Shown piece by piece: positions 6,911-16,043 of a stretch of 64,000 bases of DNA (positions within the stretch are counted from its first letter, which is position 1; the number at the start of each line of letters is the position of its first letter). Under the pieces are notes generated by a model. The model ran no database searches. It was not told the DNA's origin and was given only the letters and a program-made list of their open reading frames with translations. The translations under genes and the position numbers were made by a program. Location of the stretch: NCBI RefSeq assembly GCF_000468755.1, contig NZ_AWEZ01000045.1, positions 62,001-126,000 on the forward strand, in the 5' to 3' direction. Source of the stretch: Olsenella profusa F0195 (lineage in GTDB: Bacteria; Actinomycetota; Coriobacteriia; Coriobacteriales; Atopobiaceae).

Positions 6911-7079
6911 CCACGGAGTGGGGCCTCCTGCCCGTGCGCTCGCATCCGCGGCGGTCGGCCCGGCACGAGATGGACGTCGTATGGGAACGTGCGTTCCTCG
7001 AAATGCGGTTTAGCTGGGGATATCTGTGAATCCGCAGCTATGCGTGGGGCGATGCCGGCAGATTCGGTCGGGGCGTTCG

Positions 7080-11133: not shown

Positions 11134-11517
11134 ATGTCCGAGCCTACCTTCTATCGCTGCAATACGTGCGGCAATCTGGTCTATGTGGTCAACGAGGGAA
11201 CCTGCACGCCCGAATGTTGTGGCGAGCCGATGGAGGAGCTGGTCGCTGACTCCACCGATGCCGCAACCGAGAAGCACGTGCCTGTCATCGAACGTTCCGG
11301 CGAGACCGTGACCGTCAAGGTCGGCGAGATCGCGCATCCCATGCTTGAGGCCCACTTCATCCAGTGGATCGCGCTGGCATACGGCGAGGCCGTGTCGTTC
11401 CACCATCTCGAGCCTGGCGAGGAGCCCGTCGCAACGTTTGCGGGTGTGCCCGCGGACGCCAAGGTTGTGGCCTTTGAGCACTGCAACCTTCACGGGCTGT
11501 GGAAGGCAGGGGCCTAG
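11134..11517 (+). CDS. dfx: Desulfoferrodoxin (superoxide reductase, two iron centres)
   Basis: Reduces superoxide to hydrogen peroxide without making oxygen, a typical defence of anaerobes; cytosolic, 127 residues. The start at 11134 follows GAGAGGAACC and gives the family N-terminus. Residues 8-30 form the desulforedoxin knuckle (YRCNTCG...PECCGEPM), which binds a four-cysteine iron. The C-terminal catalytic iron site is intact: His in EKHVPVI, HPMLEAHFIQW with two more His, and the final Cys and His in FEHCNLHGLW. The gene is single, with a palindrome upstream and a strong terminator downstream, so it is probably an independently regulated unit. Confidence 0.95.
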   Translation: MSEPTFYRCNTCGNLVYVVNEGTCTPECCGEPMEELVADSTDAATEKHVPVIERSGETVTVKVGEIAHPMLEAHFIQWIALAYGEAVSFHHLEPGEEPVATFAGVPADAKVVAFEHCNLHGLWKAGA

Positions 11518-11545: not shown

Positions 11546-11577
11546 GCGGGCACCGGTTCGACCGGTGCCCGCCTTTT
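11546..11577 (+). terminator. Rho-independent terminator after desulfoferrodoxin
   Basis: A perfect 12-bp stem, GCGGGCACCGGT with ACCGGTGCCCGC, closes a 3-nt loop and is followed by CTTTT. It begins 28 bp after the dfx stop codon. Confidence 0.85.
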
Positions 11578-11769: not shown

Positions 11770-13629
11770 ATGAGAATCGGCATCGCACAGATCGAGACTC
11801 GCCCCGGTGACCTCACGACCACAGGGGAGCGCATCTGCTCCTATGCGAGCGCTGCGGCGATGCAGGGTGTCGACCTGCTCCTGTTCTCGGCAGGCGCCCT
11901 GACGGGTTTCCAGGGCGTGCGGCCGAGCGACCAGCAGGACTTTGACGTCGATGTCTTCCGCTGTCTCTGCGGCCTCTCCGAACGCGTTTCCTGTCCCTGT
12001 GTCATACCGGTCTACCTGGGGCTTGAGGATTCGCTCTTTGCCGATGTCGCCCTGGTGGCGGACGGCAGGGTCCGCCTGCTCAACATGGAAGTCGATGGCT
12101 TCCAGATGGGGGAGACCCCCGAGCGGCCTGTCGCGCCAGGCTCGCGCGTGCTGTCCTATGGGGGGAGAACGTTCCAGTTTGCCTGCACCCTCGACGAGTA
12201 TGATGCCATCGTCTATGCGGGTACATCGGCGGACGTCGTGGTGCTGCTCGACTCCGAGGGGGCGAGCATGGACGATCCCATGAGCCTGCTGGGTGCCGCC
12301 CTGGAGGAGAACAGCTATGCGGACGACGCGGCCAACCTCGGAAGCTGGGTCGTGGGCGTGGCGTCACTGGGCGTGAGCGGCGAGTCGGTCTCATGCGGCG
12401 GGAGTTTTGTGCTGTCGCCGACGGACGGGCTCGTGGCCGTGGCGCCCGCCTTCGAGGAGCATCTGCTCGTTGCGCCCCTCGAGGAGGGTGCGGCCGTCCC
12501 TGACACGCGTCCGGAGCGCCCCGTCCTTGACGAGCGGCTCTTTCTCTGGCAGCTGCTCACCTTGGGTATCAAGGGGCTCACCGCTCGCGCGGGCGCCGCC
12601 CCCGAGGTGGTGCTGGCGCTCGATGGGACCCTGTCCTCGCAGGTGCTGGCCATACTTGCCTCGGATGCCCTCGGTCCCACGCACGTGCACGCGCTGCTCT
12701 GTGCGGCGGATGCGGCGGGACAGCGGGCCTCCGACAACCTGGTGACCCGCCTGCGTGTGGATAGCCGCCGCTCCGAGCATGCCCGCACGCACGGGGCGTC
12801 CGCGGAGGACGTCCTCGAGTCCTCCCAGGTGGAGGCGCAGCTTGCCGCGTGGGCAGCGGAGCTGGATGGCGTCGTGCTCTCATCTCAGGACAAGACGGCG
12901 CTCGCCCTGGGGCTCGATGCCCGCCAGGCGACGGCGGCCTTCGTGGTCCCGCTGTATGACGTGTATCGCTCCGACCTCCTGACGTTGGCGCACTTCAGAA
13001 ACACCATCTCCCCGGTCATTCCGCATGTGACGCTCATGCCCGCGGATCTTCCCGATCCGTGGGGACATGCGGTTCGCGGTGCGCAGGAACGCGAGGAGCG
13101 CCTGAGCGCCATTGACCGCGTGCTGGCCGAGTACCTCGAGAACGCCCGGCCCATAGCGGACGTCATCGACGTCACGGGGTTCTCGCGCGAGTTCGTGCTT
13201 GATGTGCTCGATGCCCTGGATGACGCCAATGGCCTGTGTCTCGTGATGCCGCATACGCTCGCCACGGGCGCGCTCACCCTCAGGGAGGCGGCGCTTCCCA
13301 CGGGCATGACCTGGCGTGACGGCGCCCACGCGCATCCGGGGGAGCTGCAGGCAACACTCTCGGACCTGGTCGAGCGGCACCTTGACCGATCGCGGCAGCA
13401 GGAGGATGCGACCGATGCCCAGACGCCACCTGATGGGGCCACCCCCCTGGGGCAGGGGGCGCGGGAGGACGTCGCGCGCCAGATGTCCGAGGCCCTTTCG
13501 CTGCTGCGCGACTTCGCGCAGGCGCAGGGCCTTGACATCAGCGTGACCCAGCGGGAGCTGGGGGAGACGGAGCACGACGGTCGCACCGACGACCATCCCG
13601 GCTGGCGCTATCCCTTCTCCGAGAACTGA
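11770..13629 (+). CDS. NAD+ synthetase-like protein with degenerate active sites
   Basis: The 619-residue protein follows the two-domain plan of glutamine-dependent NAD+ synthetase (NadE): an N-terminal nitrilase-type amidase and a C-terminal adenine-nucleotide hydrolase fold. Key positions are altered. The amidase Glu motif FPELALTGY reads FSAGALTGF (near 39), the usual catalytic Lys is not recognisable, and a Cys is kept near 139. The synthetase P-loop LSGGIDS reads LDGTLSS (near 284), and the later TSNKSE motif reads SSQDKTA (near 371). The tail of about 100 residues is unrelated. A catalytically dead, possibly regulatory or scaffold protein is inferred. It lies directly before ruvC but has its own upstream region. 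pncB, a NAD salvage gene, lies 6 kb away. Confidence 0.6.
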   Translation: MRIGIAQIETRPGDLTTTGERICSYASAAAMQGVDLLLFSAGALTGFQGVRPSDQQDFDVDVFRCLCGLSERVSCPCVIPVYLGLEDSLFADVALVADGRVRLLNMEVDGFQMGETPERPVAPGSRVLSYGGRTFQFACTLDEYDAIVYAGTSADVVVLLDSEGASMDDPMSLLGAALEENSYADDAANLGSWVVGVASLGVSGESVSCGGSFVLSPTDGLVAVAPAFEEHLLVAPLEEGAAVPDTRPERPVLDERLFLWQLLTLGIKGLTARAGAAPEVVLALDGTLSSQVLAILASDALGPTHVHALLCAADAAGQRASDNLVTRLRVDSRRSEHARTHGASAEDVLESSQVEAQLAAWAAELDGVVLSSQDKTALALGLDARQATAAFVVPLYDVYRSDLLTLAHFRNTISPVIPHVTLMPADLPDPWGHAVRGAQEREERLSAIDRVLAEYLENARPIADVIDVTGFSREFVLDVLDALDDANGLCLVMPHTLATGALTLREAALPTGMTWRDGAHAHPGELQATLSDLVERHLDRSRQQEDATDAQTPPDGATPLGQGAREDVARQMSEALSLLRDFAQAQGLDISVTQRELGETEHDGRTDDHPGWRYPFSEN

Positions 13630-13648: not shown

Positions 13649-13681
13649 AGAACGGACGTTCGTATCCGCAGAGGGAGACGC

Positions 13682-14344
13682 ATGGTTATCCTCGGCATAG
13701 ACCCAGGCCTCGCCCATACGGGCTGGGGGATCATCGAGACGCGTGGTGCGACCTGCCGGACGCGCGCCTATGGGTGCATCGCAAGTGACACGTCTCTCGA
13801 CCTCGCACGCCGCCTGGGGAGGATCTACGACGAGGTCTCGCGGGTCATCGTCGCCTACGCACCTTCAGAGCTCGCCATAGAGAAGGTCTTCTTTGGTAAG
13901 AACACGCGCTCCGCCATCGCGACGGCACACGCGCGCGGTGCCGCCATCGTCGCGTGCGCCGAGGCGGGGCTGCAGATGGGGGAGTACACCCCCATGCAGA
14001 TCAAGCAGGCCGTGGTGGGTACGGGCTCTGCCGACAAGCGCCAGGTCATCTTCATGGTGCGCACCATCCTCTCCCTCGACCACGACCCACGCCCCGACCA
14101 CTGTGCCGACGCGCTCGCGGCGGCGGTGTGCCATGCCAACCTCACCACCACCCAGCGCGTCGCCCGCAACGTTGCCTCCGTCGCGGTCTTCGAGGCCGAG
14201 CAGGCGCAACGCGACCAGGCACGCAAACGGGCCAGCGAGGAGACCGCCGCCGCCACGGCAGCGGCGGTGGCGCTGCGCTCGGCAGGCCCCCAGGCGCGTC
14301 CGGCTGTGTCCCGGGCGCGGCAGAGCAGGAGGAGCACGCAATGA
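13682..14344 (+). CDS. ruvC: Holliday junction resolvase RuvC
   Basis: Endonuclease that resolves Holliday junctions with RuvAB, 220 residues. The RNase H-like fold begins with LGIDPGLAHTGWG (catalytic Asp7). Next come AIEKVFFGKNTRSA (catalytic Glu near 66) and DHCADALAAAVCH (the last catalytic acids). The core ends near 165; the remaining 55 residues are an Ala/Arg/Gln-rich tail, longer than in most RuvC proteins and of unknown use. The start follows AGAGGGAGACGC. The stop overlaps the ruvA start by 4 bp (ATGA), the classic ruvCAB operon arrangement. Confidence 0.97.
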   Translation: MVILGIDPGLAHTGWGIIETRGATCRTRAYGCIASDTSLDLARRLGRIYDEVSRVIVAYAPSELAIEKVFFGKNTRSAIATAHARGAAIVACAEAGLQMGEYTPMQIKQAVVGTGSADKRQVIFMVRTILSLDHDPRPDHCADALAAAVCHANLTTTQRVARNVASVAVFEAEQAQRDQARKRASEETAAATAAAVALRSAGPQARPAVSRARQSRRSTQ

Positions 14345-14973
14345 TTTCCCAGCTCACTGGATCGCTCGTGGACGTGTCTCCAACGTCTGTCGTGCTCGAT
14401 GTCGGCGGCATCGGCTTTGTCCTAGGCGTCTCGGCCACCACTGTGGCCGCGCTGCCACAGGCGGGCAGCGCCGGCATCACCCTCCTCACACGCATGGTCG
14501 TGAAGGAGAATGCCATGGAGCTCTATGGCTTTGCCTCCGACGACGAACGCGCCGTCTTCGACAGGCTCATCACCATCTCTGGCGTGGGACCCAAGCTTGC
14601 CCTTGCCGTCCTCTCCTCCTTCGCCCCGGCGGCGCTGGCCACCATCGTCACGATGCAGGACGTCAGTCGCATGGCCCAGGTGCCCGGTGTGGGCAAGAAG
14701 AAGGCACAGCGCCTGCTCATGGAGCTCTCTGACGTGTTTGCCAAGGACGCCACGTTGCGGGGGTTGACTGGCGGCCAGGACGTGCCATCCGGTGCGCCAT
14801 CCCAGCCCGATGCGTCCGAATCGACTGCCGAGGAGGCCACCTCGGCGCTCCTCTCCATGGGCTTTACCCCACAGGAGTGCGACCTTGCCCTCAAGGGGCA
14901 TGACGAGGCGGGCGCGACCACGCTCGAGCAGACCATCGCCTACGCGCTCAGGCGTCTGGGAGGTGGTGCCTGA
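14341..14973 (+). CDS. ruvA: Holliday junction branch migration protein RuvA
   Basis: Junction-recognition subunit of the RuvAB branch-migration motor, 210 residues. The N-terminal OB fold starts [12 protein letters not shown] and contains VLDVGGIGF. The middle has tandem helix-hairpin-helix motifs ([14 protein letters not shown] and [16 protein letters not shown]). An acidic, Pro/Ser-rich linker of about 30 residues leads to domain III ([16 protein letters not shown]), which binds RuvB. The true start is the ATG at 14341, overlapping the ruvC stop; the frame stays open far upstream inside ruvC but that part is antisense-like noise. It shares one base with the ruvB start (TGATG). Confidence 0.96.
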
Positions 14974-16043
14974 TGTGGGAGGCCCCCGATGACGACCTCT
15001 TTGCGGATGCCGTGGGGACCCCGTCCCACGAGCGCGAGCGCATGGTCACCGGCGAGCTCACGGCGGACGACATCGACGTCGAGCACAGCCTGAGGCCCAC
15101 CACGCTCGATGGCTACATCGGCCAGGAGCGCGTCCGATCCAACCTGCGCGTGCTCATCGCTGCCGCCAGGGAGCGCAATGAGACGTTGGATCACGTGCTC
15201 TTCTCGGGTCCTCCGGGCCTGGGCAAGACCACGCTCGCCGGCGTCGTCGCCACCGAGATGGGCGCGCGCCTCAAGACCACCTCGGGCCCAGCCATCGCGC
15301 GCACGGGGGACCTCGCGGCCATCCTCACCAATCTCGAAGAGGGGGACGTCCTCTTCGTGGACGAGATCCACCGTCTCAACCATCAGGTCGAGGAGGTCCT
15401 CTATCCGGCGATGGAGGACTTCGCCCTCGACATCGTCATCGGCAAGGGCCCGGCTGCCCGCTCCATCAGGCTGGACATCCCACGCTTCACCCTTGTGGGG
15501 GCCACCACGCGCACGGGCCTCCTCACGGGCCCCCTGCGGGACCGCTTTGGCATCTCGTATCGGCTCGACTACTACGGCACGGACGAGCTCGCCCGCATCG
15601 TGGAGCGCTCTGCCTCCATCCTTGGCGTCGAGGTGGACCACCAAGGTGCCCAGGAGATCGCCAGCCGCGCGCGCGGCACGCCGCGCCTGGCCAACCGCCT
15701 GCTCAAGCGCGTGCGTGACTATGCCCAGGTGCGCGCCGACGGCAGCGTCACGTGGGAGGTCGCGGCGGAGGCCCTCTCGTTCTTCGAGATAGACGAGATG
15801 GGACTCGACTGGATGGACGCCAGGATCCTCGATGCGCTCACGCGCACGTTCCGTGGCCGACCCGTGGGGCTCGCCACCATCGCCTCGGCGGTGGGGGAGG
15901 ACTCCTCCACGCTCGAGGACGTCTATGAGCCCTACCTAATCCAGCGTGGCCTCATCGTCCGCACGCCGCAGGGCAGGCAGGCCACGGCCCTCGCTTACGA
16001 GCATCTCGGCATCGTGCCGCCCGCGGAAGGCGGCGGGGCCTGA
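14973..16043 (+). CDS. ruvB: Holliday junction branch migration helicase RuvB
   Basis: AAA+ ATPase that drives Holliday junction branch migration, 356 residues. Walker A is [11 protein letters not shown], Walker B is [10 protein letters not shown], sensor 1 and the RuvB signature are [19 protein letters not shown], and the arginine-rich sensor 2 region reads [20 protein letters not shown]. The C-terminal winged helix contains PRGLAT-like [12 protein letters not shown] and [16 protein letters not shown]. The start codon shares its A with the ruvA stop. It is the last ruv gene, but the next gene begins only 40 bp on and may be co-transcribed. Confidence 0.97.

Follow-up and report, generated by a model that had tools for sequence, protein, structure and literature searches.

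A NadE-derived protein of Atopobiaceae lacks both catalytic sites and keeps an invariant C-terminal tail

The window, by which we mean the whole 64,000-nucleotide stretch of Olsenella profusa F0195 DNA that was analysed, carries upstream of ruvCAB a gene of 619 codons that runs without interruption from an ATG at 11770 to a TGA at 13629, with an AGGAAGG ribosome-binding site directly 5′ of the start codon. A first-pass annotation made from the letters had called this frame long, uninterrupted and well started, as indeed it is. The features of the gene and its surroundings are listed here with the evidence for each.

11546..11572, + strand: terminator-like hairpin between the desulfoferrodoxin-like gene and the window gene (one found, about one expected by chance)
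11770..13629, + strand: NadE-derived double pseudoenzyme, 619 aa (open reading frame, Pfam/NCBIfam, AF2 model, PDB matches, dN/dS)
11770..12495, + strand: nitrilase-type glutaminase (amidase) domain, residues 1-242, catalytic Glu/Lys/Cys absent (alignment; 5jqn, Z 21.3)
11890..11892, + strand: codon 41, Ala at the position of the amidase catalytic Glu (alignment columns)
12526..13332, + strand: NAD-synthetase (PP-loop ATPase) domain, residues 253-521, catalytic motifs substituted (alignment, structure match)
12622..12639, + strand: former PP-loop SGGxDS, now DGTLSS, residues 285-290 (translation, alignment)
12892..12894, + strand: Lys375, invariant in active and dead relatives (alignment)
13453..13521, + strand: C-terminal extension helix, residues 562-584 (AF2 secondary structure; a (Y/F)LxDF..GG pattern recurs in relatives)
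13615..13626, + strand: invariant tail FSEN (FSxN-COOH), residues 616-619 (homolog ends, DNA spellings, disorder)
13650..13661, + strand: LexA/SOS-box-like GAACGGACGTTC between the window gene and ruvC (pattern search)
13682..14344, + strand: ruvC, the usual downstream neighbour
14341..14973, + strand: ruvA
14973..16043, + strand: ruvB

Sequence profiles recognise the protein as a NadE relative at the margin. The Pfam families CN_hydrolase (24.6 bits) and NAD_synthase (21.8 bits) both match barely over their cut-offs, and the score against the NadE equivalog model is 71.7 bits, far short of the cut-off of 479. PDB sequence searches nevertheless matched the NadE chains 5kha, 3n05 and 4f4h. An AlphaFold2 (AF2) model built from 76 family rows had a mean pLDDT of 88.3 and a pTM of 0.86, and its residues 1-519 superposed on 3n05 with a Z score of 31.5 (3.0 Å over 464 residues, 24% identity), which confirms the two-domain NadE outline read in the first-pass annotation. 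The protein thus has the domain order and fold of the PRK13981-type glutamine-dependent NadEs (3N05, 5KHA, 4F4H) over residues 1-519 and shares common ancestry with them. In contrast to these enzymes, it lacks the amidase Glu/Lys/Cys and the synthetase SGGxDS, NKSE Glu, YGD and PSAEL, and it adds the C-terminal helix and the FSxN tail.

The motifs were read against six outgroup NadEs in which they are intact. In the window protein the amidase Glu, Lys and Cys columns hold Ala, Glu and Thr, so the alanine at the catalytic Glu and the want of a clear catalytic Lys, both noticed from the letters, are borne out in the alignment; C139 lies one column away from the position of the catalytic Cys and is not conserved. 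The reported change of the P-loop from SGGxDS to DGTLSS was likewise found, and the other synthetase motifs are altered as well: NKSE has become DKTA, YGD and PSAEL are lost, and YKT reads YRS. The first-pass description was therefore right but understated, since these further motifs are altered and the C-terminal tail is invariant. Catalytic residues preserved at other points of the chain, which it had named as counting against its proposal, were not seen, as residues 1-519 superpose and the motif columns are substituted.

Relatives were sought in 113 good genomes, 104 of which match the window protein, the weak matches in other families including ordinary NadEs. The protein's own family, f1, is the Atopobiaceae, and the family that shares its catalytic losses, f10, is probably the Coriobacteriaceae. 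In none of the 80 aligned relatives from these two families is the amidase triad kept or the PP-loop intact, which argues that the losses are not chance. The NKSE Glu, the YGD Asp and PSAEL are substituted in nearly all of them too, and the YKT Lys is Leu in f10. Lys375 and Asp397, which lie within old substrate-site motifs, are invariant. As a homolog of an enzyme that has itself lost the catalytic residues, the window protein is a pseudoenzyme.

The same genome has a single other NAD synthetase (G000:C69:121978-123915), a glutamine NadE of the M. tuberculosis type whose PEL, KRHIPN, CED and SGGLDS motifs are intact, and this is the second, intact nadE that the first-pass annotation proposed to look for. 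The remaining NAD_synthase-profile matches in the genome are GuaA and MnmA. NAD synthesis presumably falls to the second NadE, the window protein being no longer capable of it. An intact enzyme of this type is carried across the Atopobiaceae and f10, to which, we infer, it came from outside. It shares its overall domains with the window protein (compare 3DLA and 6OFC) but belongs to a distant subfamily, has intact motifs and lacks the FSxN tail; it was not among the matches when the window protein served as a phmmer query.

The co-occurrence of the two proteins in both families raises the idea that the dead enzyme regulates NAD synthesis, either by binding NaAD, NAD or ATP or by pairing with the second NadE and tuning it. 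The invariance of Lys375 and Asp397 is in its favor, and dead paralogs that activate a live partner are known: prozyme, the regulatory dead paralog of trypanosome AdoMet decarboxylase, has the live paralog as its partner (PMC5201418). Prozyme and the window protein are both catalytically dead paralogs retained under selection. Unlike prozyme, however, the window protein shares its genome with a live enzyme of another subfamily, and a mixed oligomer is not obvious because that enzyme is so distant. With the PP-loop Ser, Gly and Asp, the NKSE Glu and YGD all missing, and the YKT Lys replaced in f10, a retained nucleotide site is doubtful. We consider such a regulator unlikely.

The first-pass annotation had also proposed asking whether the altered residues are conserved across the Coriobacteriia. 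Within the two families all 80 aligned relatives lack both sites; the synthetase motifs are intact in f3-f9, and the amidase triads in sister orders. In f3-f9, SGGxDS, NKSE and YGD are kept in 23 of 23 proteins and the amidase triad in none of the 23. The M. tuberculosis-type NadE is absent from most f3-f9 genomes and present in two f5 genomes (G134, G143). In these seven other Coriobacteriales families the native protein thus has a dead amidase beside a synthetase that is intact, and in most cases it is apparently the sole NadE. Judging by its missing glutaminase residues, this native enzyme probably makes NAD from free ammonia. Family f2 has mostly single-domain NadEs, which have the synthetase fold in common with the window protein (as in the ammonia-dependent H. 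pylori enzyme 1XNG, Z 20.0) and fall in the same Coriobacteriales clade, but retain the PP-loop and have neither amidase domain nor tail. In the other orders of the class the NadE frames are full-length, the amidase triads are intact and the enzyme looks fully active.

In core-domain trees the Coriobacteriales NadEs form one clade (SH-aLRT 100), within which the Atopobiaceae and f10 proteins sit on a long stem whose nearest neighbor is L051, an f3 protein with an intact PP-loop. The most economical account is a single death of the amidase in the order, removal of the whole domain in f2, and loss of the synthetase site in the Atopobiaceae and f10 once they had gained another NadE. One f3 genome (G100) encodes a degenerate two-domain NadE (L131, AGDLDS, which ends at a contig end) together with an intact single-domain NadE (L132). 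The decay of L131 is apparently independent of that in the Atopobiaceae and f10, a parallel case of replacement, and the pair suggests that replacement followed by decay happened more than once.

The first-pass annotation had held that the gene is not decaying, and both the intact modelled fold and the dN/dS ratios agree. Over the whole protein, dN/dS of close pairs is mostly 0.03-0.37 and is low in both domains; more distant same-genus pairs gave 0.41 and 0.53, values that are less reliable because dS is high. From the ratios of close relatives we conclude that the gene is maintained by purifying selection. Within the genus the window protein is 41-43% identical, compared with 76-80% for the intact NadE, and it thus changes fast outside a few positions, yet under constraint. 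One relative (L133, in G037) has an in-frame stop after residue 527, either a nonsense mutation or a sequencing error, beyond which the frame still reaches FSNN. Collectively, the catalytic losses across two families, the intact NadE elsewhere, the selection and the fold support, at the level of sequence, the pseudoenzyme that the first-pass annotation suggested. The strong selection, the retained fold and the invariant Lys375 and Asp397 could also be read as signs of new or weak catalysis by other residues. Neither domain has any known catalytic motif left intact, however, and Lys375 is invariant in motif-intact relatives as well and may be structural; we therefore regard a new activity as very improbable.

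All 82 Atopobiaceae and f10 homologs that could be read to the end finish in FSxN-COOH after a variable, disordered linker. In the AF2 model residues 586-619 are disordered, and so is the tail of a modelled f5 relative whose synthetase motifs are intact, the tail pLDDT being below 50 in both; that a few amidase structural matches reach residues 618-619 is too weak a sign to build on. The DNA of the tail is free to vary: among 83 sequences there are 53 different 15-base spellings, with Ser codons of both the TCN and AGC types and all three stops, and so it is as a peptide that the tail is conserved. For the same reason, a DNA element (the palindrome-like TTCTCCGAGAA) was ruled out. A general sorting signal was ruled out as well, since the tail is found on one gene only: a DNA-pattern search for an FSxN end on other open frames of the genome returned none, and the sole other FSxN-frame match with a stop (L137) lies outside any open frame. 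Among relatives with intact synthetase sites, L051 ends in FSKN and the f5 enzymes close with related peptides such as ILEN, FLDN and FLEN, and an FSxN-like tail is absent from the f4 and f6-f9 enzymes.

An invariant terminal peptide on a disordered linker is what a docking motif typically looks like. Conservation and predicted disorder suggest that the tail docks a partner protein. The first-pass annotation had suggested a sensor of NAD state, a regulator or a structural partner; because the tail is invariant, a binding role is the likeliest: the protein would most likely be a non-catalytic scaffold or regulator that docks its partner through the tail.

The position of the gene points to one candidate partner. 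Downstream on the same strand, ruvC follows after 41-313 nt in 76 loci and after 2152 nt in one; in five loci no ruvC lies within the flank fetched. Since yebC is often upstream of ruvC in several other Coriobacteriales families, the adjacency of the window gene to ruvC is derived. A GAACN4GTTC box stands between the two genes in 74 loci, nearly all of those in which ruvC is adjacent, and with this LexA box in between, ruvCAB is probably driven by an SOS promoter of its own. The window gene is accordingly tied to ruvCAB by position rather than as an established operon. SOS regulation of the window gene itself was ruled out, as no LexA box lies in the 300 nt upstream of it. The 64-kb window holds two LexA-type boxes against 0.67 expected; the second, GAACGTGCGTTC at 6985-6996, precedes dnaE (7127) by about 130 nt, a hint that dnaE is under SOS control here. 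Between dnaE and the window gene is a desulfoferrodoxin-like gene (11134-11517) that recurs in many Atopobiaceae loci. One Atopobiaceae genome (G043; a single contig, 99% complete) is without the window gene, ruvC and ruvB, all of which its genus mates have, and these losses may be one deletion.

The conserved, derived adjacency and the joint absence from near-complete G043 would fit a Holliday-junction accessory that binds RuvA, RuvB or RuvC through the tail. However, the LexA box intervenes, six loci have the gene without a directly adjacent ruvC (L021, L023, L025, L062, L067, L078), the G043 loss may reflect a single deletion or a gap in the assembly, and the tail, present in L051, is older than the adjacency. 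We rate a Ruv accessory as quite unlikely. The location upstream of ruvCAB, together with the fast divergence, could instead mean that the gene is a passive leftover whose frame stays open solely because its breakage would upset the expression of ruvCAB. This we find barely credible: dN/dS is low over both domains, the tail is invariant despite free synonymous change, ruvC has a separate LexA box, and the gene persists where ruvC is not adjacent.

The reading that we prefer, and hold to be rather probable, takes the gene for the Coriobacteriales' own NadE, inherited vertically and now a non-catalytic binding protein. Comparison of its families shows that the order first lost the glutaminase site, so that the remaining synthetase presumably drew on free ammonia; that the Atopobiaceae and f10 carry a second, intact glutamine NadE, putatively acquired from outside; and that the old protein has lost its synthetase motifs there but not its fold, frame or tail, which purifying selection has retained. 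The folded, probably oligomeric body would present flexible tails that dock a partner protein. The binding role may be older than the loss of catalysis, because L051 and the f5 enzymes, with intact synthetase sites, already have the FSxN or a similar tail. The protein's rapid divergence outside a few positions counts against this reading. More tentatively, a housekeeping NadE may have held a second job through this tail, which alone kept the gene once another NadE had taken over; a double pseudoenzyme would then run through the whole family, and an NAD-synthetase fold would thereby have become tied to another process, possibly DNA repair through RuvABC.

Our literature search found no description of this Coriobacteriales NadE-derived protein, which is a new and well-supported pseudoenzyme of a kind already known. 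The history of a pseudoenzyme is usually missing, and here its steps are visible in living relatives, from an intact enzyme, through a dead amidase with an intact synthetase, to a second NadE and full motif loss with selection continuing. The four-residue invariant tail offers a direct handle on the retained function. For the biology of these gut and mouth bacteria, the database name "NAD synthase" would be an error, one that could lead metabolic models of Atopobiaceae and f10 astray, and the loss of the glutaminase residues in the order's native NadE changes predictions of its nitrogen source.
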